Below, in pieces: positions 14,030 to 53,115 of a stretch of DNA of 64,000 nucleotides. The stretch spans positions 20,598,001-20,662,000 of the forward strand of contig NC_135358.1 in NCBI RefSeq assembly GCF_051622035.1, read 5' to 3'. The stretch is from Arctopsyche grandis (Eukaryota > Arthropoda > Insecta > Trichoptera > Hydropsychidae). The notes beneath the pieces are model-generated. The model worked only from the letters and a program-made list of their open reading frames with translations. It was not told where the DNA came from and searched no databases. Both the position numbers and the translations under genes were made by a program. The stretch's first letter is position 1. Every line of letters starts with the position of its first letter.

Positions 14030-15850
14030 ATAGTAAGAGACTCTTTTATGTTAAAACCCATTGGCGTGTTTTTTTTTGGTGTATTTATATTTAATGTGTT
14101 TTATTAATTATTGAATTCACAAACCTCGTATAGTACTCGGCATCTTGTCGTATCCTGGTAATCCTCAATAATTCAAACTAGATGATGTCATCTTCTTATA
14201 ATAAAAAATCCTCACGACGATTTACCGCCGGAAAATGGTTGAATATCACTTCGTAATTTAAGAATTTTCATTTTAATTAACTTTATTAAAATATTGAATT
14301 ATAAAACAACTTTTGGTGTTAAAAAATAGGTGTACTTGTTTGTTATGTTTGACGTAATAAAAGGCACTCTATTTTAAATATAATTATTTATATAATATTC
14401 TTTTAATTCAATCAATAAATATATGCTTGTATGTATTTAATTTTTATTTTGAAATTTTTATAAAAAATAAATGCGTTGCGTTTATTGGACCATGAACTTT
14501 TCCTGTTTTAATCAATATGTAAGAAATAAAAATCTACAATATAATTTATTCTTTTTCTCGTTAAATAATTGATCTATGGACGGCGGAATTTTCTGAAACA
14601 AAAAAGAATACAAATTAATGGTCATTTCAGTATACTAAATACATAATACAAGTAAAAAGAGTGGCATTACAACGAATATTAATATATGTATATAAAATGA
14701 ATGAATAATTTATAGTAGGTTTTTCAATAGCGTATCAAAATTAGACAGTATGGTATAAAGTCTTCAATATACGCAATTTTTATACGAAAGTAAATATTGT
14801 TATATGCAAAGTTCGAAGTCAGCGTTCCTGTCGTTTCAAATTAAGTCAAATTCATGGTAATTTATAAGAGAGCTGGATGTTCTCTCGTCACATTTCGGTG
14901 TCCTAGGTCAATGTCAATATTACGTATTCCAGAATATATAGGGTGACACGACGACTATAAAATACTCAAATTTAAATCTGATTCAAAACGAATTTACATA
15001 CATATGTTACTTCAAATATAATTCGAGGATGACCTCCAAAAGGTAAGAATAAATATAAAACGAGCCATCCTTTCATTCATACGAAAGAAGGGCTGTAAAA
15101 GTAGACGTGTATGGAATATAAATATTTGCTAAAATTTGATGTGCCTGTTTTAGCCTCCAGTCAAATTTCATTCAAAACTTTCACGGAAGGAGCAATTTAA
15201 CAAATAGACAATCTTTGTTCTCGACTTCTGCCTTGGGCGTATTAAATTCAAATGGTGGGTAAGGAAAGCTTCAACGAGATTAATTTACATATTTACATAG
15301 CTTAAACTTATGTATTTATGAATGAGGCTATTAAAATTATTACATTTTTATTTTATCTATGCACGTAGTAACAATAGATGAAGCTTTGTGATCTTGCAAA
15401 AATTTGAACGCGAGTTTTTTTTTAATAATTTGTACATGAGTATATACGCGATTCAACTCGGAACCACAAAATTTGATATGCTATTCCAAGATACCCAAAT
15501 TTTGAGTTTCGAATGGGTTTGGAGCCCTAGATTGAAGGATTGCACGAAAATCGAAATGTTTGTTATCTATGTAAGCTTTAGCTTTCAACTGAGAACCATC
15601 AATTTCGGTTCACTATTTCATAGTACCTTGACATAGAACCTAAATTTTGGAAGGGCTCCGTGCCTTGGACTGAAGTACTCGTCCGTTATGAAATTCCACA
15701 GTTTAAATATAAAACAGCCAAAATTGGTTTGCTATCCTCAAGTGTTGGAAGGCTTTTTTTTATAACTATCATCTTTTTCATATATGCCATAGTGCTATGA
15801 TAGGTCACATAAAATATTGTAGATACTATGGCTAACTGTGTACATACATA
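14030..15850. other. Gene-free AT-rich stretch
   Basis: No gene, RNA or clear repeat boundary is seen. A small open frame at 15,388-15,636 has no recognisable content. Confidence 0.4.
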
Positions 15851-40000: not shown

Positions 40001-43000
40001 TATTGACTCAACAACACGACAAGCAATATTGCGCCGTAACGTCGCGCTCTGTAATGGATGGATGAATATGTAAGCCAATTTTTGCCATGCACTCATCTAT
40101 TTGCTAACAATCCCATGAGCCTGAAACACGCCGATCGGCGTTATTTTTGGAGTATGTAAAAAATAAACAGGAATGTATTTCTGTCAGTGAACCAGACAAT
40201 CATATTGTTGAGTGGACGTGAAGAGGGGGCTTCCAGAATCGGAGAGAAAGACGCGGGAAGTTGTAGAATTCGTTTATTCGTCTGCTCTCGTCGGCGCTCC
40301 AGGACGGAATGGTTTCCAAATAAAGAGCGCCCCATATTTATAGATGTTTGGGCTCAACAACTATTGGTCATTGAGTCAGACGATCCCATTGGCCGTTGCA
40401 TACGGCTCATTCATTCGTAGAGGCCATTTTGGCGGGAACGAGAGATCAGGTGATCTGCGCTAGTAAACCATCGGTCCACAAGCGCCACTCACCTAATCTC
40501 TACGTTATAATATTATATATGTATCCACATGTATATTGCTGTCGGTTCCCTCATCACTGAGGATCGTGACTATGATGTGCGGTCAACCAGCTGCCTCCAT
40601 TCAGTTCTAAATTCGGCCAGGCGAAGACTTGCTACCGTGGAAGCGCCCGTCGCTGCAGATACTTGGTCAGTCCAGCGTGCGGGGGATCTGCCTCTGGCTC
40701 TTCTGCCTTCGACGCTACCAACCACAACCAACCGCTCCAGGCTCTCCTCACCTCTTCGTGCAATGTGGCCGAAGAACTGCAATATACGTTTCAGGCATAT
40801 TGTTGACAATCTATCCTTGATTTTCAATTCTTCAAGAATAGACACATTCGTGCGTTTGTCGGTCCAAGGCACGCGCAGTAGCCGTCTCCAGGACCACATC
40901 TCGAAGGCATCGATTCTCCGTCTATCCGCCGCCTTCATGGTCCACGTCTCGACACCATAAAGGCAGACAGAAAAAACGAGACTCTTCACGAGACGGATTT
41001 TGACAGCAGTTGTAATGGCTCTATTCTTCCAAATCTTCGTTAGTTGTGACATTGCCGATTTTGCTAATGTAATCCGGCGCCGTATTTCCAATTCGCTGCC
41101 GCCGTTGTTAGATATGAGTGACCCCAGATAGACAAAATTATCAACCACATCTATACCGTTTAAAGCTGAGTTGTTGTTTTGCAGCTGTTGGTGACGGTCA
41201 ATTATCATAATTTTTGTTTTGGGGCGGTTTATCTGGAGGCCAAGCACATTACTCTCTGTCTCAACACGACGGATCAGTTCGGCCATTTCTTCATGATTAT
41301 TAGCTATGAGCGTTGTGTCATCCGCATACCGAAGATTGGATAGTTTTTTTCCACCAATGGACACTCCACCCTTCCAACCATCCAGTGCTCTACGCATTAT
41401 ATACTCTCCATATATATTAAATAGGTCTGGAGATAATATACACCCTTGCCTTACTCCACGTTGTACTCGAAAATTTGTCGAGTTTAGCGAATTGATTCGA
41501 ACTACTGCATTGTTATCATTATACAAGTTATGTATTATCTTTACAAGATGCATGGGGACTCCCATGTCCAGTAGAACTTTCCACAGATAGTCCCAGTTCA
41601 CAAAGTCAAAAGCTTTTTTATAGTCTATAAAACAAAGAACGGCTGGAGTTTGAAACTCCCGACATTTTTCAATGAGTTGACGTATATTCAGTATTTGTTC
41701 CCTCGTCCCTTTGACCTTTTACAAACCCTGCTTGTTCGTTCGGTATTTGCCATCCAAGGTAACTGCTCAAACGATCTTTAATTATATACAGCAATACTTT
41801 ACTAGAGTGCGATATTAAGGCTAAGGTCCTGTAATTCTCGCATTTTTTTGTAGATCCTTTCTTGTGTAAGGGAATGAATATTGAATTGACCCAATCTTTC
41901 GGCCATACTCCGTTTACCCAGATCTTGTTGCACATATTACATAGCGCCTTTATCGCAGTTTCACCAAGCTCTTTCAGAAGTTCAGCTTGTATACCATCGC
42001 TGCCAGGAGACTTTTTACATTTCAGTTTCTTTATGGCATTTACAACTTCAGATGTCAAGATGTCAGGCTCCCTGACATCATCAATTAGGGAAACAATTGA
42101 GGTCGACGAACTACCACTGTACAATTCCGAACAGTATTCTTTCCATCGGTTGAGTATCATATCAATATCTGTAAGCGTGTTTCCAAATTGATCATCTATT
42201 GTCCAAGTTTTGGGTGAAAATTTTTGAGTGACGATTTTTACTTTGTGAAAAATATCCCTTGCCTGATTCTTTAATGCGTGTTTTTCTATCTCCTCACATA
42301 TGTCATTTATATATTTAGCTTTATCCCGCCTACAACTCCTTTGAATATCTTTATGTAATATTGCATACCTTTCAAGATATTCTGTCGATGTTATGCCAGT
42401 TTGTTTAAGTCTTTTACGTTCTTTTATCTTAACCCAAGTTGAATCAGAGATAAAAGACTTACGATGTTCATTTTGCGGTGTTTGATGTTTTCTGGCATAC
42501 CGAATTATGAGATCTTTAAAAATTTTCCAAGACTCTTCTACATCTACATTAGGATTTATTTGGAATTCTGCATCTTTTTCTCTGATTACATTGCCAAAAT
42601 TAATTACATCATCATTGGTGAGTTTAATTGCTTTATTTTGATGTCTTTTAATCATTTTCAATTTCAGTCGAAATTTAGCAACAAGTAAGTTATGGTCCGA
42701 TCCGCAATCTGCACCTGGATATGTTTTGACGTTATGTATCGATGATTTCCATCTAGAATTTATTAATACATAATCGATTTGGTTGCGGTGACGATCCCCA
42801 GGAGATATCCAAGTGTACAATCGCCTAGGATGATGTTGAAACCAAGTATTCATAATGGACATTTTATTTTCAATGCAGAAACTTATAAGTTTCTCTCCTC
42901 TCTCATTTTGAATACCCAATCCATATTTACCTACTATGTTATCAATGTTGCTATTATTACCGACTTTGGCATTAAAATCACCAAGAATGATGGTCATTTC

Positions 43001-46000
43001 TTTGTTTGAGATATTTGACAATGTATCGAGTAGTGAAGCATAGAACGCATTTATTTTAATATCTTCGGCATCTGCAGTAGGAGCATATATTTGAAGGATG
43101 TTTAGTTTATACGGATGCGTGTTGAGTTTTAAGTGTATAAGTCTGTCACTTATGGGGTTGTAGCCAATTAGTGCACTGGTTAATTTAGATGCTAAGATCA
43201 CCGCGACACCGCTATGTGACGAATCTTGGTTACCAGAAAAATATATCGTATTTCCATTTGAAGTTTTATAATGGCCGTTGTTCTTCCAGTGCGTTTCCGA
43301 GATTCCGAGTATATCTAGCCTATGACTGTACATCTCTTTCTCAACAACCAGTGTTTTCCCAGGATTCAGGAGTTCTCTAACGTTCCAAGTACCTATTTTG
43401 GATTTGTTCCGTAAAGTTTCTCCAGTCGCATATTTTCCACATGATGCCTGGTGAGTCACATGCATGTGGCCAGTAGCCAATTTCACACCGTGAGACCTGG
43501 AACCTCGAAGGCGCCGGGTGTCAGCCGGAGAGTCAGACTTCTTCACACTTTTATTTTTGTACATCATAGTTATCTTGGGAGAATACTGCAGTGGATTCCC
43601 ACTTCCTTCTACAGCGCAGTAAATGTTTTGACATCTTATACTGGCAGAGCTGCTGCCCACTACCAGGGATTTATTATAGAGTTTCCTTCTCTGTCAAAGA
43701 TGATACGGTACCTTTGAAAACCGGGTTGTGCTTTTGTTAAGCGGCGGCACTTACTCGCCGCTGACCTGAGACCGTCATAGTGTTGTGTGACATTTTATAG
43801 AGTGAAACTTACCACGGATTCACTCATCACCACTCTTATCTCAGCGCTCCTTGTCCAGGACCACCATGTCGCCATGGCAGTTGACTGCAAGAGTCGTTCC
43901 CCTATTTGCAACTTGGGGACCTGAGCGGTTGCATGGAGCTCTGCTCTGAGCTTATTAATTACTCCGTGCGGACGGACGTGTGTTTCCATTTATGATATAT
44001 TTACATATATAGACAGTTTATTCACAATCATAATATTTATGAAATTAGTACCAAACAATAACGTTAACGTTGAGTACAAGTATCCAATATCAAATATTAA
44101 ATTATCAAAACTAAATATTAAATAATTCAACACTCAATATTAAATAATCAATTATGAAATAATTCAACACTCAACATTAAATAATCAATTATGAAATAAT
44201 TCAACATTAAATATCAAACCATTCACTCAATATTAAATATGAAATAATTCAACGTTAAATATTATCAATACTATCATTAATAAATCAATCGACGTTAATA
44301 GTAAATTATTATCAAAAGAAATGTGATCGAAATTATGTGGGTAATTATGTAAATATGAAAATATTATAAATTTAAATTCCATTTAAAAAATATGAAATCA
44401 AGCATAGGTAATGATTCTGAATATGTACTAACTTGCGAGGCGCCAGAAGAGCTACATACTCATCCCAGCACCTCCTCTTTAGCTCCAATTTAACACAAAA
44501 TTCTACATACTTATCGGGAACAACACACAAACACACGTCCGCACCGAGCTCGCTCAACCCGCGATCAAACAGGAATACTACCTGCTAAGCCTTTCCAGGT
44601 AGCATTGAACATGAGTCGTGTAATACGTGTCAATATTTATAAAGACTGGTTTACACCGGAATTTCTGAATTTATAACCATAGCAGAATTTCTCGGTGGAA
44701 ATCCCTAACTGCCGAGTATTTTAGATTTTGGCTTGTCATTTAAATTGTGAGCATTACATTTTAACAATGAAGAAGATGGAACTAGTTTTGGAAAAATACA
44801 TTCATTAATAGACTTATTTTGTTTATTTTATATTATATAGAGTCTAAACACACCTTTTACAGAACTCGAAATCCTCGGCAGTACTTATCTAGGGTTTATT
44901 TGGACTAGCTACAATTTTTATACATGCTTTCTATTGGATTTCTAAATAATTCTAGTTGGAAATGTTGGCGAAATTTTCAGCGTGGCGACAGAAAAATTTA
45001 AAATTTCAACAGAAAAGACGGGTTAATTGACAAAATTCGATAAAAGCAAAGTTTATGACTTTTTTGTAATCTGTATTTCAAACATGCAGACTTTGTATTG
45101 AAAGCAATAATGTGGCGCCAGATTTGAGGCCGACCATCAAAGCAGAAGTTGCATTTAGGACAATGCTTTCAAAACATATAATATATATATTTTGTCTGAA
45201 CACAAAATACTAAGAATTAATAAAGTACAGAAATTCTTATAATTGACTGTATTTCAAGTTCAGTGATATAATACATACTTGACTTTTAGAAGATATCTTC
45301 AAGAGGAGATCTTTAAAGCAAGTGGACAACGTCAACGCATATAATAAATATGGGTTTGGTGCAAACGATCGACAAGCGCCAGACAGACTGAACCACAGAT
45401 TAACTGGATGGCTGCTTTAAACGCAATTCTCGACTTCACGAATGATAGATTGCACATCAGATGACGAGTAACCTTTCGATATGCACAGATGCAATTATTA
45501 AAATTGAGTTGGATCTTTCTGGCGAGTTTAATAATGCAAAATTCGGAACTAAAGTATCAGAAGCACAGAACGTATACAGGGTAGGTATGTCGGGACTTCG
45601 GGTAGATTCCGCTTAGTGTAAGTGCGAACAGTGCGCACGCATAAGGTTCAGTCTGTCTGGCGCTTGTCGATCGTTTGCACCGCATCGAATAAATATTTGT
45701 TTCTTAGCAAATTTTATAAGACGAAAGGAGGGGGGGGGAAACAAAAAAAGTTTGCCCCAGGCGTCATTTACCCTCACTACGCCACTGTTTATTAGTCAAA
45801 CTGAAATCATGCAAATTGAAGGATAGGTCTACTTTAAACTTACACTGCCATATTCTAAAACTCATTTCAAGATTTTCACCACCCCATCCATCCATTTGCT
45901 CGTCGTATGATCCAACCTCCCAAAAGTAGTTTCTTTCTATGGCAAAAAGCCCCCCAGCCATTGTCGGCGATCTATAATCAAATATATGTATATTAAATAA

Positions 46001-48872
46001 ACAATTGAAGCTTCAAATCAATATTGAAGGATAAAAATCAAAACCTCGCAGGTGCTATGTCGCTTTCTCTTCTTTGAAGTTCATCATCGCTCAAAGCAAT
46101 CCAAGTGAAATGACCAGAAAATATAAATCCACCAACCTATTAAAGTTTTAAGATTATTTTATGTGGTCATATAATTATTACATACATATATATGTAGGTG
46201 CAATGCTTAAATTATGTAAAGATTCAATTACCTGGAAAGTAAAACCAGAAGTGCTATAGTAGAAAGTATTGCTATCAATTACGTCGATAATCGGAACTAA
46301 TACAGCTTTGCGCTCCTCTTTGATTCGTTGTAGTAAAGGTCTGAGCCAATCCTTCACAGCTTCACAGTGAGCATCGAGAAAGACGAGAACGCCCCCATGA
46401 GATACTCTAGCTCCGGCGAGTCGGGCACGAATCAAACCGGACCTCTCTTGCAATCTCACTACTTTGACCATATTTTTAGGAAATCTAGTCTCTATGTAAT
46501 AATCTAACTTGGCGCCGAGTTCGGGCAAAGTGGAACAGTCGTCCACGAGTACAACTTCCTGAACGTTTGTACCACCCGTGTTCAACACGCTCCATACGGT
46601 ACGTATAACTACAGAATAAGGCTCGTTGAAGAACACTATAATAACCGAGGCCGATGGCAGATCTTCGTCGTAGTGAACGAAAGCACATTTCGGATCACGA
46701 TAATCTGAAAAGGATGATTGATCATTATGAAAATTTAAGGCGAGTAAAATATTAAAATTCGAGACATTCTCGGTCAACTAACAATGATACGGTGTTGAAT
46801 TAAATATATATAACCTTGTCACACAGCCGATACAGTGTTTAATCAAGTGTTATTATTATGTTTGAAGCGATTAATTTGAATATCAAATACGTGTATACTT
46901 AATGTACGTATATATATTATATTTGTATGAACAGTCTTTATAGATGATAATCTGTGTTTAAATTTTCGTTTTATTTCGTCGGAATAATTAAATTCATGCC
47001 ATTACTTTTTATTCATTCTATAGATATGTAGCAGGGCGATGGAGTCAGAGCATTTCAGGCGGAGTCAGAGTCGTAAAAAATCAACCGACTCTGAGTCTTT
47101 TTTATTATTTTCTTTAATTAATAGTATTTCAATTGAGATAATAATAATTTCTTTATAAAAATCATAAATTATATTAAAAATAAAATCGTTGAATTGTATT
47201 TTGACGTGTTGTGCCCTAAACTGACTGTTTCCTCTATCTCATACTTTTTTATTCTTATTTTTTGATTAAATTGATTTGTTTGTGTGTGAAATTCATACAC
47301 ATACATTATGAATGAACTTACTTTTATTATTTATATCTATTTCATTACCAACAATTCAATAAATCGGTTATGTGTCAATTTTTAGTGATTTTTTAAATTT
47401 ATTTAATTTTTCATATTTTGAAAATCGGTATTATTTTTATTATTAACAATTTTATAACTTGGCAGTAAAAGTCAATGTTACTAAAATCGTTCAAATTTGA
47501 GTCGGAGACGAATCGTAATATAAATTCGGAGTCCGAGTCGGTAAATTTTGATCTGACCCACACCCCTGATAGATTTACTTTTTCATGTAAAATTGATCCT
47601 TTTTCATTTCAGATTAACCCTTTTTCATTTCAAATTGACCCCTTTTTAGAGTCAATTCGAAATGAAAAAAGGTCAATTTGGAATGAAAAAGGTTTAATTT
47701 GAAATGAAAAACCTGTAGTAGAATTTCTCAGACTTTTCCCTTTTGGTCGGTAGCCATTTGAATAAACAGTTTTCAATTTAGTAGTGTATAGATCGACTTT
47801 TAAAACGACATATTTGTTAATTTGTGAATATTTCAAAATCAAAAAGTATTTTTAATAAATTCCACTTTTATATTATTTCAAGTGTGGCTACTATTATAAG
47901 AACTCCGATGTTGAATAACTCAACAGTCGACGATAAATTATCCAAATAATCATAAAGCATATTTGAAAATTTGGAACTATTACAAAATATACAAACATCT
48001 TCATCATCAAGGTATAAAAGCTATATATAGTAAAAAAAAAATCTACCGCTATGTGGTTTTTTAATTCATGCATAAACTATTGCAAAACTTGTTATGTCTA
48101 CAATATAACCATCTCGAAAAGGTTATTTATAAACATCGAAATGTCAATATCGTATTTTTCTTTCTCATTTACAGAATACGATGTGTTTAAATATGACACA
48201 AACAAAACGACGTCTATGAGGACATAACGGGTTTTGCAATTCATCTAGGCGAATGCAAATTCAATTACAAAACCGATATCTCACATTCACGCCGATACGA
48301 TTTAGCATAACTTTTACTTATGCACTAAATTGCATAAGATATATAATTGTCATGAACTTTTTGAATCGAAGTTCATTTTTTGCGCCGACGATTGGGTAAA
48401 AGTAGTGAGCCTTGAAGGGGGAGAGGGGAGGGGGGAGAATGGTGAGAGCAGAATTGATACCCTTGAGGGTCCTGTTGTAGGGGATGATGTCGCTGAGGGG
48501 TTCGTTGAGAGCAATTCTCTTGTAGACGGCTTCGCCCTCGGAAACGAGATCGTCGGGCAAATAAGCCGGCTCCCCGAAAGCCCCCATCTCGGGCTGCTGG
48601 CGAGCTTCGTCACTGCGAATCTGCTCCTCGAGCGAGCGTCGTTGCGGAAGGATCAGGTGTCCTCGCGAGCCCAGGAGCTGAGAGGGGGAGCTGCCGCTGC
48701 CGCTGCCGCTGGTGCTGCTGCTGCCGCTCCACCCCTTCAGGAGAGACGCGCAGTAGCAGAGGAAGAGCAGGCCGAAGCACCATCGCGCGGCCACGATCAG
48801 CCGGCGAGTGCACCAGCGGAGACGAGCGTGCGACACCCCCATTGCGGGCGGCGGCCGCGCCGCTACTGACAT
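37051..48872 (-). CDS. Polypeptide N-acetylgalactosaminyltransferase (pgant/GALNT family)
   Basis: Eleven coding exons, minus strand, in transcription order: 48,872-48,461; 46,704-46,232; 46,136-46,045; 45,971-45,844; 39,367-39,272; 38,267-38,188; 38,108-37,972; 37,892-37,716; 37,646-37,586; 37,514-37,331; 37,259-37,051. Phases agree and give 682 aa. A short Arg-rich cytoplasmic tail and one membrane anchor (about residues 27-45) form a type II Golgi protein. A Ser/Gly-rich stem follows. The GT-A domain starts after [21 protein letters not shown] carries the DxH metal motif, SRVGHVFR the third metal ligand, [15 protein letters not shown] the Gal/GalNAc-T motif. A ricin-type lectin domain (CID, QEW and QKW-type repeats) follows. 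It transfers GalNAc from UDP-GalNAc to Ser/Thr. The last exon adds about 70 residues past the lectin domain, unusual for the family. Intron 4 (6.5 kb) holds a LINE and a MITE. The paralogue is not assigned. Confidence 0.95.
38753..39020 (+). mobile_element. MITE family A, copy 3
   Basis: Begins TCACATATGAACCGTTATA and ends CAGTTATAACAGCTCATA, with an interior collinear with the copy at 8,924 (CGATATGTCCAGAATCTCGG). It lies in intron 5 of the GalNAc-transferase gene. Confidence 0.75.
39594..40075. other. Transposon-end fragments in intron 4
   Basis: CAGTGACGTAACAAGGGGAGG at 39,597 resembles a hAT left end without a right partner. From about 39,758 a GGTCCATTCATACTAGCACAG segment and, inverted, CATTCATCCATCCATTACAG near 40,070 may be ends of another decayed element. 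Confidence 0.3.
40441..40501. other. Compact two-tier stem-loop
   Basis: The outer arms AGAGATCAGGTGA and TCACCTAATCTCT pair over 13 positions with one mismatch. An inner stem GCGCT/AGCGC closes a loop of about 19 bases. It lies 69 bases past the LINE stop codon, on its 3' side, and could be a structured 3' untranslated region of that LINE. Confidence 0.5.
40503..43990 (-). mobile_element. RTE-clade LINE, nearly complete
   Basis: A non-LTR retrotransposon in the same orientation as the host gene, inside intron 4 of the GalNAc-transferase. It has an apurinic-type endonuclease and a reverse transcriptase in one frame, no zinc-knuckle ORF1 and a short 3' untranslated region. The 5' boundary (about 43,990 or further) is uncertain: a GC-richer segment with an open frame at 44,372-44,557 could be more 5' leader. 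No target-site duplication was resolved. Confidence 0.85.
40570..43660 (-). pseudogene. LINE polyprotein: AP endonuclease plus reverse transcriptase, one frameshift
   Basis: Two overlapping-phase frames, 43,660-41,669 (663 codons) and about 41,710-40,570 in another frame, join at a CAAAGGGACGAGGG segment near 41,705-41,718. Endonuclease motifs in order: [46 protein letters not shown] and GSDHNLL. Reverse transcriptase motifs: [31 protein letters not shown] and the catalytic [11 protein letters not shown]. The C-terminus has YGVETWTMK and [12 protein letters not shown], as in RTE elements. The protein would nick target DNA and prime reverse transcription there. A single one-base indel is the only break I saw, so the insertion is young or the break may be a sequencing error. 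Confidence 0.85.
44098..44275. repeat. AT-rich tandem repeat, unit about 40 bases
   Basis: Repeated blocks of AATAATTCAACACTCAA plus ATTAAATAATCAATTATG, about four degenerate units, in intron 4. Confidence 0.75.
44280..45342. other. Intron 4 remainder
   Basis: AT-rich with a GC-richer patch at 44,430-44,600 that may be LINE leader sequence. No exon fits the reading phase here. Confidence 0.4.
45352..45687 (+). mobile_element. MITE family C, copy 2 (336 bp) with 9-bp target-site duplication
   Basis: Ends share GGTGCAAACGATCGACAAGC with the inverse at the right. AATAAATAT flanks both sides exactly (45,343-45,351 and 45,688-45,696). Relative to copy 1 it lacks about 30 bases of the right arm. 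Inserted in intron 4. Confidence 0.85.
45720..45790. mobile_element. Right-end fragment of a hAT-like MITE
   Basis: A G-run followed by TTGCCCCAGGCGTCATTTACC and CACTACGCCACTG, the inverse of CAGTGGCGTAGTG seen in the element at 6,299. The end overlaps the region just 3' of exon 4. No left end found. Confidence 0.4.
47032..47568. mobile_element. GAGTCGG-type MITE (537 bp)
   Basis: Starts CAGGGCGATGGAGTCAGAG and ends, inverted, CAGGGGTGTGGGTCAGATC. GAGTCGGAG-like runs lie inside both ends. Flanks ATAGATAT and ATAGATTT differ by one base if four bases are added to the left end. Such ends occur in arthropod hAT-like elements. Located in intron 1 of the GalNAc-transferase. Confidence 0.65.
47577..47711. 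repeat. Tandem plus inverted repeat of a 20-22 base unit
   Basis: CCTTTTTCATTTCAAATTGA-type units occur in tandem on the left and their reverse complements (AATTTGAAATGAAAAAGG) in tandem on the right, giving an imperfect palindrome. Adjacent to the MITE ending at 47,568. Confidence 0.8.
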
Positions 48873-48943
48873 ATCCCCCCCGAACTACTCACATTCCCGT
48901 CCCCCTTCCCCCGGTGCTGACACACGCTACGGCTGTACTATAC

Positions 48944-51900
48944 GATTCACTGTAAGTTCGCCTAATGCAATTCACCTAATTCGAGTATACCTAAGCGAGT
49001 TGGTCGAATATCAACATACCGAACGACGACCATACCTAATGTCATACATACCTAACTGCAGTTTACCTAAATACAAATTGATCGAATGAAGGTTGTTTTA
49101 CGTTGACGGATAGATGGCACTTTTGCATTGATAATTTCAAGATTATTTAAAACAAAATAAAATATTAAGTTGTATTTTAAAATTTATATTTTATTAATAG
49201 ATGAAGCCGATCACTGGCACGTATTTATTGTTTTTAAAAAATGTGCGTGTTTGGCTGTGTATTTTAGTAATAATTCAAACACCATTAAATATCTTTGAAA
49301 CTGAAACACTGAAACTTTTTACTGCGTAATAAAATTTTAATCGTTGCGCTATAATTTTTTTTTTCATTTTCAAATCTGCCGGAAGTAGCATTATTTTTCT
49401 TTGAATTATTATATATCCTAGACCGTGTATCGAACTGAAATTTTATATCTATAACTTGTATTAACTTGTACGCTCGAACTTACACTATTTTTTGGACTTA
49501 TTAATTAAATGTCTACTCTTATCGAAAAAATATAGTCCTTCAATTAATATTACATAAATAATAAATAATCAATAAGTTTATAAACCGGAAACGAGCCTTT
49601 TATTACATACAAATCTCAAAAATGATGCGACTGCTGCTGCCGATGCTGCTGATTTTTTCGAAACTATTGGATACTCACATTAAACTAATAGTTGATAGTG
49701 TCATGCCGACTCGAATTGCAAGTCAAGTGCCGTTTTATTAAGTGATAAGCAATACTGTGTTACATTCATTGAAAGCCTAGGTTCTATAAATCATATTCAT
49801 TAAGTAGATAGAAGAAACGGAATTCAGCGAAGAAATGTCATACGATGAACACTTACCATTTTACATATCGACTAATTCCGATAAGTCATATTTTAAATCC
49901 ATTGTCATATGAAATAATTATTATATATGGGATAGATGAAACATATTGTGACTAATCAGAATATATTACAACAGGTAAATACACTTTTACTATACATATG
50001 TACTCTGTTAATATTTTTCTTATATAGATATATACTTTTTACCCGAACAATAGAAAAAGTCAAAGATTTGTGGAAACATTGTGTTTCATTTGATACTTAC
50101 TCTAGAGAACAGCTGGCATTGTTATCATTAACAATCTTTGAGTTTTACTGAACAACATTTCAAATCTATTTTCAAACAAGAAATCGAACGGAAATAAACT
50201 AGAAAATATATATCACTCTTTATCTTCCGGCGACAATTCGTCTTAGATTGTAGAAGACAAGAGTCTCCACTTGCTGAAGTTGAAAATTATAAAGAAAAAG
50301 TAAATATATATATTAATTATTTAAACAATGGGAATAAAAAGTACACAGTAAAATTTTTTAAATTGAAAGAAATAGAGTCTTTTGAATTTTTTTTAATACA
50401 CAACAGTTATGATAAATATTAATAAACACGAAAACACAGTATTTAATGAATGGTCTGGTATACAAATATTTAAAATATAAAAAAAACTCATGGGGTGGTG
50501 ATTTATTGGCAGTCTTTTCACTACATAATAACCATGAGGGGTGACACATCACTTGCAAAACTTGATTTTAAGTGGCAGTCATCACATAACAATTCATAAA
50601 AACAATTCATTCCACAATAACAACAATTCAAAAATGAAGTACACGTATGATTTAAGTGAAGTTATATTTCGCAATTGCAATCACATTATCTTAGAAAAGC
50701 ACGAAACATTTCATTACTCAATATAATCAATTTCACCCTACTTATTTTATTTATTAAGTTTTGATAACATGGGATCAATTAAGGTAATGATTTTTTTTTT
50801 AGACATTGGAAAACTATTTCTGAAGAGGAAAGGGTTGGAATAACTGTGGAAACTACTGAGGACCTGTTGGCCCTACTCATCGAGCCGAGAATATCCTAAA
50901 TTTGTTGTTAGTAGATTTATGCGACAACTAATGGAACAGTATCACATTTGTGTTAGCAAAATTTGATATGGGAGCTGTTTCGTTCACAGTTATCGTCGCA
51001 GGGAGGCAATCTGCGTTAGAGAATATGTCAAGATTAAAAATGCTGAATTCCATAATTTATTGATAAATATTACTTATACTATGCTATTTTTAAATTTTTC
51101 GTTCTAGTATATTTAGAACTGAAATTTGGATTTAATGTACGTTTAGAATCCTAGCTCCACGCTTGAAACCCAATTATAAATGTGATATTAAATTCTGAAC
51201 TAAAAAAGGATTTCGAAAAAATATGTGGCTTCAAATTTTTAAACTCTTTCCAATGTTAAATTTTATTTATCGCTGTGTGAATGAGCTGATAAGCATTAAA
51301 TTTTGTGCGAAACAATTAGACATGTCACAAGCTACAGTTATTGATTGAAATCATTATTTACTTAGGGTCTGTGTGGTGTCACTAATAGAACAACCAAATA
51401 CCATGATCGGTGGAGAAGAGATGGTCATTGAAATTAGCAAACGTCTTTTCGTTTATATACGTACCAAATTTTTTGTAAAAAACTTCTATAGCTTCACACA
51501 AGAGTATTTTTATTACATGACTTGATACAATAGTCAATTTTCTTTAACGTTAGTTGTTGTACATATTGATTATTCATATATTGAAAAGAATATATGTGTT
51601 CTGTGTTGTCTGTAATAAGTTGACCATCTGTAATACCACTCATGAGTTTTTATTACATGAAAATGTTTATTATAAATTGGTTTATTTCTGTAACTTGATT
51701 AATAAATTATTTATTATTTATTGTATTGCTTGTTTCTTGTCTTGTTATTATTGTTTATATTTCATTGTGTTTTGCAATCTACAATACATATGTAGTATAA
51801 ATTACTAACTGATTTATATTTGTTATGTATTCATCATAATTTATATTTATTACGTATATTTAAAATTATTAATTATTTATTATGGAAATTGTATCAATCG

Positions 51901-52531
51901 TAGAAATTGTACTAGTCTGTCTATTATACATGCGTTTTCTTCTCACCTTCTTTTAATATTGATGATTGGAAAGCCAATTTTAATATATGTACAATAAAAA
52001 AATCTGTATATCTTTTTTGATTCCTTTTTATTTTATTCCGTTTTATTACTTTATTTTATCATAAATTTTATTGTAAATATGTACAATGGTTGCTATATAA
52101 TATAGTATAGTATATATAGCAAAAGGTAATACGAAGCTACAAAAGCAATTAATTTTTTCAATGTCCTTAATTTAGTTCACTCGCCATTAGGTGGGAAATC
52201 CTTTTTAAATCTTCTGTTTGGCGCAATATGGTGTATATAGAGTTTAAGGGCTATTTGCAAAGAAATGTTATAACATTTATCTGTCTATGTTACTACGCCA
52301 TCTATTGATATCGCGTCGAAAAATTACTAAATAATAAAATTTACTACTATTGGTTTGAAACTCGGCTACTGCTGGTTTGAAACTCGAAATTAGGTGAATG
52401 TGTCATTCGGTATAAAGATATTAGGTGAATTTACCATTAGGTCAATAGATTTTCGGTAAAAGCGTCATTAGTGGAATTGCATTAGGTGAATTGATTTAGG
52501 TGTATTGCATTCGACCAATTTACCTGCACCC
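48944..52531. mobile_element. Large TIR element (3,588 bp) with 9-bp target-site duplication
   Basis: GTACTATAC occurs exactly at both borders (48,935-48,943 and 52,532-52,540). Reading inward, the left end GTAAGTTCGCCTAATGCAAT and the reverse complement of the right end GTAAATTGGTCGAATGCAAT align without gaps, each then followed by a CACCTAAT-like block. Both ends carry degenerate arrays of CCTAA boxes over about 150 bases (left to about 49,090, right from about 52,380). The 3.3 kb core is AT-rich without a recognisable transposase. A 9-bp duplication is typical of Mutator-like elements, so a non-autonomous MULE-like element is inferred. It lies about 70 bases upstream of the GalNAc-transferase ATG. 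Confidence 0.75.
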
Positions 52532-52630
52532 GTACTATACAATGCAAAATGCACTTGTTGATCGAATCTACCGCGTGGTGGACTCAACGCACTTTTTTAT
52601 AACCATGTCTACAAAGTATGAATATGTAAA

Positions 52631-52907
52631 AAACGGTAAACGAACTACTAGTCAAATGTGAACCAGTCACTGGACAACCGGTCGCTCTAGATCGGTCACA
52701 CGCGATCACCCGCCAGACTAAAACTGGTCACGAGAAAACTGGTCACACCCTAAAATCGGTCCCGAGAAAACTGGTTGATCGATTTTAGGGTGTGACCAGT
52801 TTTCTCGTGACCAGTTTTAGTGTGACGAGTGATCACGTGTGACCGATCTAGAGCGACCGGTTGTCCTGTGACTGGTTCACATCTGACTAGTAGTCCGTTT
52901 ACCGTTT
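52631..52907. mobile_element. Foldback element: near-perfect 277-bp hairpin
   Basis: Two arms of 128 bases (52,631-52,758 and 52,780-52,907) are reverse complements with only a few mismatches, separated by a 21-base loop. Ends read AAACGGTAAACGAACTACTA. Internally a short motif, AACTGGTCAC or its variants, is repeated. No coding. It has the form of a foldback MITE; target-site duplication not resolved. Confidence 0.85.
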
Positions 52908-53115
52908 AAAATATGATCAAATTTTAATAAAAAGTACTCCTTTGTAAGTTTATTACGCTTCGCTGCGACATTACGTTTCAACAGATGTCACCAGTGCTAA
53001 AATCAGTATTGGCACGCTTTCTGAAGTTCAAACATACATCTCGATACGATTATTCTTTTTTATTTATTTAATAATAATGGCATCCACGATTACGAAAAAA
53101 TCGCGGGGTCCTATT

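Follow-up and report, generated by a model that had tools for sequence, protein, structure and literature searches.

The 64-kb window, by which we mean the whole stretch of DNA analysed, contains an element of 3,588 bp that lies between two exact copies of a 9-bp sequence and close to the start of a gene on the minus strand. The features are as follows.

46178–46777, minus strand: downstream frame, about 1.5 kb further on in the neighbouring gene, with a glycosyltransferase family 2 domain (PF00535, 94 bits)
48318–48884, minus strand: frame in which the neighbouring gene begins, without a Pfam match at E ≤ 0.001 and with its first in-frame ATG at 48872
48935–48943, plus strand: left copy of the 9-bp target-site duplication, GTACTATAC, exact
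48944–52531, plus strand: whole element, very probably an internally deleted non-autonomous MULE, 3,588 bp; its ends coincide with those of other copies
48944–48956, plus strand: left tip, GATTCACTGTAAG; 6 of 13 positions identical to the right tip
48957–49087, plus strand: left array of nine degenerate 10-bp TTCACCTAAT-like boxes at a pitch of 14–16 bp
50620–50633, no strand: internal-deletion junction; longer copies have about 1.77 kb here (e.g., positions 1661–3425 of L009)
51175–51453, plus strand: relic of a Merlin (IS1595/ISXO2-like) transposase with an in-frame TGA at 51346–51348
52389–52518, minus strand: right array of nine boxes at a pitch of 14–16 bp, in inverse orientation
52519–52531, minus strand: right tip, GGGTGCAGGTAAA (read inwards)
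52532–52540, plus strand: right copy of the 9-bp target-site duplication, GTACTATAC, exact

Following the naming in the initial annotation, we take the frame at 46178–46777 to be that of a putative polypeptide GalNAc-transferase and the frame at 48318–48884 to belong, presumably, to the same gene. About 70 bp past the right duplication there is a hairpin (52613–52925) with 149-nt arms, 89% complementary, and a 15-nt loop. Pieces of it, of 77 and 60 bp, recur at the fetched loci L054 and L040, and it is thus probably a separate repeat family. On the minus strand at 40570–43693, overlapping frames of 674 and 382 aa look by eye like a non-LTR endonuclease and reverse transcriptase.

Ends of the element

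The sequence GTACTATAC is present at both borders exactly as first described, while a third occurrence in the window, in reverse-complement at 14128, is unrelated to the element. In inverse, ungapped alignment the two terminal 36-mers agree at 25 positions, over the length originally proposed, and this value is not reached by any of 200,000 random pairs of 36-mers from the window (maximum 24). The similarity is weaker further in, with 61 of 144 positions matching in the ungapped alignment. Terminal inverted repeats, which are a MULE trait, are therefore present over the terminal 36 positions and imperfect beyond them.

Each end is composed of a 13-bp tip followed by nine TTCACCTAAT-like boxes that share one orientation with respect to the end and are located at offsets of 14, 28, 43, 57, 72, 88, 104, 119, and 135 on the left and 14, 28, 42, 56, 72, 87, 103, 118, and 134 on the right, and the arrays end about 144 bp from the element edge. 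The initial annotation had thus recognized real arrays at both ends, but its count of about six boxes at spacings of 10–25 bp has to be replaced by nine at 14–16 bp. Scored against TTCACCTAAT, the boxes retain 5 to 10 of 10 letters, several slots being weak and the lowest at 5, and the positions past the ninth slot score 3 to 5. When the slots defined on the left end are applied to the right end, the score is 75, compared to a shuffle mean of 37.1, and none of 5,000 shuffles reaches 75. On the left end itself, where the slots were defined, the score is 65 against 36.1 (again 0 of 5,000), and the best slot score in the window outside the element is 52. This slot test replaced a Fourier-type periodicity score, which was not significant for the boxes (340 and 156 of 400 shuffles reached the score). 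The nine-slot arrays are nearly invariant across 22 aligned copies, all nine slots being kept. By analogy, it is likely that the subterminal boxes bind the transposase.

The family in the genome

The genome (475.7 Mb, 189 contigs) was searched for copies, and L-numbers denote the loci that were fetched. The element as query gives at least 58 matching pieces, with 40 of 378 candidates scored, and the common family copy measures about 5.3 kb. A 35-base left-end pattern, allowing up to three mismatches, occurs 53 times, and a 38-base right-end pattern, with right ends listed at the same tolerance, 66 times; the controls give 0 in both cases. A correctly oriented right end lies within 12 kb of 39 of the 53 left ends, with spans of 2.8–9.2 kb.

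Among the 25 copies first fetched, a script obtained both ends for 22; 14 of these have 9-bp duplications, five have 8-bp duplications, one has a 10-bp duplication, and two have none. The remaining three are L031, which has both ends and a 9-bp duplication, L032, of which the right part is present, and L033, with the left only. Adding L031, L057, and the window copy to the 22 scripted copies gives 25 read at both ends, of which 23 have target duplications of 8–10 bp (9 bp in 17, 8 bp in five, 10 bp in one). The two that do not, L026 and L027, have the same right flank as L025 and therefore look like rearranged duplicates. MULE target-site duplications measure 8–11 bp, commonly 9 bp. Within the terminal 170 bp, a few sites distinguish 22 copies from the window copy, and over the last 1,150 bp the pairwise identity among 22 copies is 0.979–1.000; such near-identity indicates that the family moved recently.

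The proposal in the initial annotation would have fallen if no other copy had the same ends, and dozens with these ends are found, 9 bp being the commonest duplication among those read at both ends. These copies also dispose of the alternative of an ancestral sequence in which the GTACTATAC pair and the similarity of the ends arose by chance. Although a reverse GTACTATAC does occur elsewhere in the window, the other copies begin and end at the same borders, with different duplications, and apart from two matches of 38–39 bp the left flank occurs only once in the genome. We regard coincidence as refuted.

Parts of the approximately 1.77-kb stretch that is missing at 50620–50633 are common to L009 and the separately structured L029, which makes a deletion in the window copy the simpler reading. 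L023 and L024 are 3.83-kb copies of identical internal structure, in which some 645 bp of additional sequence is delimited by a 5-bp overlap, and their 8-bp duplications are different; they represent a second non-autonomous form that has itself moved. At 16.37–16.55 Mb of contig C2, eight right ends with the same single mismatch are found at intervals of 16–40 kb, four of them with matching left ends, an arrangement that suggests a repeated segment with an older subfamily in it. L020 is a 7.8-kb family copy with a nested insert of about 2.5 kb that holds a 349-aa frame.

Transposase remnants: MULE and Merlin

For 14 of the 53 left ends, no Merlin relic is listed within 9 kb, and six of these (L055–L060) were fetched. 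MULE and/or FLYWCH pieces are found in three of the six. L055 has a 410-aa open MULE frame (PF10551, 62.5 bits, cut-off 27.6), upstream of which there is a stretch that continues FLYWCH, split off by a foreign insert. L056 contains a FLYWCH zinc finger (PF04500, 63 bits, cut-off 23.6) and a short match to the MULE frame. In both L055 and L056 the left end stands alone in the 6.15 kb read, and no right end (up to three mismatches) is listed near L055. L057 combines both family ends and the 9-bp duplication GGAATTTGA with MULE pieces in broken frames (PF10551, 53.7 bits, cut-off 27.6) and has no Merlin relic. These features argue that the ends belong to a MULE, so that the Mutator-like assignment first suggested from the duplication proves to be right. 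L058–L060 have no MULE or FLYWCH match; the transposase domain in L059 is of another kind (PF13843), and a long frame in L060 resembles a retrotransposon by eye.

Among the fetched loci and the window, matches to the MULE and FLYWCH queries at E ≤ 1e-4 are confined to L055, L056, and L057, and no MULE or FLYWCH sequence is found in the window copy and the 22 copies. The longer copy with a MULE transposase that had been anticipated is therefore represented by MULE pieces in L055 and L057, but not by an intact gene, none being found with family ends in the 6 of 14 relic-free left ends read. In the genome search with the MULE frame, in which 102 of 1,404 candidates were scored, no listed match of at least 70% identity has a longer stop-free frame than the 410-aa one, the others being shorter or broken. 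Related MULE frames of 482–549 aa occur elsewhere in the genome at 29–40% identity.

MULEs of the Phantom/Muta type have an N-terminal FLYWCH domain upstream of the MULE domain. L056 has the FLYWCH domain, and in L055 a stretch that continues it lies upstream of the MULE frame, with no single uninterrupted gene seen; the nine-slot ends display the subterminal tandem repeats of this type. We conclude with high confidence that 48944–52531 belongs to a recently active MULE family of the FLYWCH-containing (Phantom/Muta) type, of which it is an internally deleted, non-autonomous copy.

The only transposase-like sequence inside the window copy is of another kind. The relic at 51175–51453 aligns with residues 68–159 of a 287-aa open Merlin-type frame in L054 (positions 1669–2529, C6:9546868–9547728; PF12762, 30.7 bits), with 51 of 96 columns identical (a match also scored at 57% identity, E 4.6e-22). 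Of the 25 copies first fetched, 24 share the codon position of the TGA, L033, a left half, being without the relic, which indicates that the relic was dead before the family spread. DDE_Tnp_IS1595 sequence in the family amounts to this 96-column relic with its common stop, and it is absent from all six of L055–L060 in the 6.1 kb read of each. The Pfam search on eight short frames of the element gave matches below curated cut-offs only, and a scan of viral contigs for the Merlin fragment revealed no relative.

An identification of the element as a Merlin (IS1595-type) transposon, with the relic as its own transposase, was at one stage adopted on the basis of the relic, and was dropped because relic-free elements with the same left end carry MULE pieces. 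We now consider it very improbable. The relic matches a Merlin open frame that itself matches PF12762, it is present in 24 of the 25 copies first fetched, and Merlin duplications also measure 8–9 bp according to an excerpt of PMC8101967. However, L057, whose ends are those of the family and whose duplication measures 9 bp, carries MULE pieces and no relic. GG is expected at Merlin tips (PMC8101967, same excerpt), whereas here the left tip has GA and the right GG, and one duplication is of 10 bp, which could be 9 bp plus a chance match. In addition, 20 of the 41 Merlin loci of the genome and L054 have 0–4 scattered box matches each, with no box array in the 3.2–4.4 kb read per locus.

The relic is instead read as old passenger cargo of the MULE. 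The genome has 41 PF12762 matches, five of them in open frames of 320–424 aa, and Merlin is thus well represented in it. MULE and Merlin relics lie 1.0–2.2 kb apart, edge to edge, at C2:38.99 Mb, C6:5.55 Mb, and C9:10.13 Mb, according to the match listings in the same order and relative orientation at all three places. This suggests, from sequence arrangement, an ancestor that may have carried both, the MULE gene having later been lost. We have also considered L054 as an autonomous partner and rejected it: it has no CACCTAA/CCTAAT boxes, and its DNA identity is 71% over one 263-column stretch. No recognized ends are found in the 4.4 kb read, and its Merlin frame could be a relic or a retained gene.

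Target sites and relatives

Between the edge of the element and the first in-frame ATG of the gene (48872, minus strand) there are 71 bp, in good agreement with the approximately 70 bp given initially, and the second ATG is 101 bp away. The 71 bp have a GC content of 61%, and the left flank of the insertion, which holds the gene start, 66%. Averaged over 22 insertions (20 scripted copies, L057, and the window copy; L026, L027, and L031–L033 excluded), the GC content of the flanks is 48%, compared to 35% in a small control made up of the edges of 20 loci that were chosen for another reason (p 4e-6), and 33% in 154 bins of the window (p 1e-10). In 40 flanks, the GC content is 53% beside the junction and 42% at 200 bp. 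The family thus prefers GC-rich target sites, and it may target promoter-like DNA.

This preference bears on whether the insertion has been co-opted to provide or modify the promoter or 5′ leader of the putative GalNAc-transferase gene, which we consider unlikely. The distance of 71 bp and the preference of the family for GC-rich sites would fit such a role, and in a yeast assay a long Muta1 derivative placed in the 5′ UTR blocked a reporter, a short one being leaky (excerpt of PMC5225508). However, target preference alone predicts proximity to a gene start, the 61%-GC stretch may retain the original start, and an upstream non-coding exon is possible.

The statement in the initial annotation that the ends match no known family is too strong, since the same architecture is described, in the portions of PMC5225508 and PMC3169594 consulted, for Muta1 and Muta5 of Aedes aegypti and Tm1 of Meloidogyne; the comparisons that follow draw on such portions of the papers cited. 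Muta1 has a 145-bp end, in which a 10-bp tip is followed by nine 12-bp repeats separated by 3–4-bp spacers, 8–9-bp duplications, a FLYWCH-MULE transposase, and more than 300 putative non-autonomous derivatives, while Muta5 has a 151-bp end with an 8-bp tip and nine 15-bp repeats (PMC5225508). Subterminal tandem repeats after a short tip are found in ten of twelve Muta families with long terminal inverted repeats and are thus not universal (PMC5225508). The present family resembles Muta1 and Muta5 in its FLYWCH-MULE type, 8–9-bp duplications, and nine repeats per end, a likeness of layout, and also in its many non-autonomous derivatives with heterogeneous interiors and a possible preference for genic regions (PMC5225508). 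It differs in that the left and right arrays are degenerate (61 of 144 positions match in the ungapped comparison), in the Merlin relic inside, and in that no complete transposase gene was found.

With Tm1, a Mutator/Foldback element, the family shares asymmetric tips, tandem repeats (13–15 bp in Tm1), 8–10-bp and mostly 9-bp duplications, FLYWCH and MULE domains, and a majority of non-coding copies; the repeat sequence differs, and the repeat number varies in Tm1 but is nine in all 22 copies here (PMC3169594). A survey that places Muta in Phantom, group 20, gives 8–10-bp duplications, FLYWCH in some members, and arthropod hosts for that group, as here (PMC6446971). Merlin elements share the 8–9-bp duplications, and a relic of one lies inside, but the tips and the MULE-bearing relatives do not fit them, the relic being read as a passenger (PMC8101967). 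In view of these parallels, the element adds to a known kind of transposon and leaves the knowledge of transposon classes unchanged.

As to how the copies moved, transposase from another MULE copy would have acted on them in trans, binding the nine subterminal boxes at each end and pairing the ends. It would then have cut at the tips and inserted the element at a target staggered by 8–10 bp, with a preference for GC-rich, promoter-like DNA, in this case the 5′ end of the putative GalNAc-transferase gene. The source of this trans-mobilization may be dead.

The family is a well-resolved, young animal MULE family, with near-identical copies, intact duplications, and a measured preference for GC-rich sites, and it provides one candidate case of promoter disturbance beside a glycosyltransferase gene. 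The layout of nine slots is also that of Muta1, a mosquito element with experimentally demonstrated activity, as reported in the consulted part of PMC5225508. It is tempting, though as a whole rather doubtful, to go further and propose that an end geometry of about 145 bp, with a short tip and nine transposase-binding slots at a pitch of about 15 bp, is conserved across distant FLYWCH-MULEs despite drift of the box sequence, which would imply that the transpososome takes up a fixed number of transposase units at each end and targets GC-rich gene starts. The number of transposase units that an animal MULE end needs becomes testable with this family.
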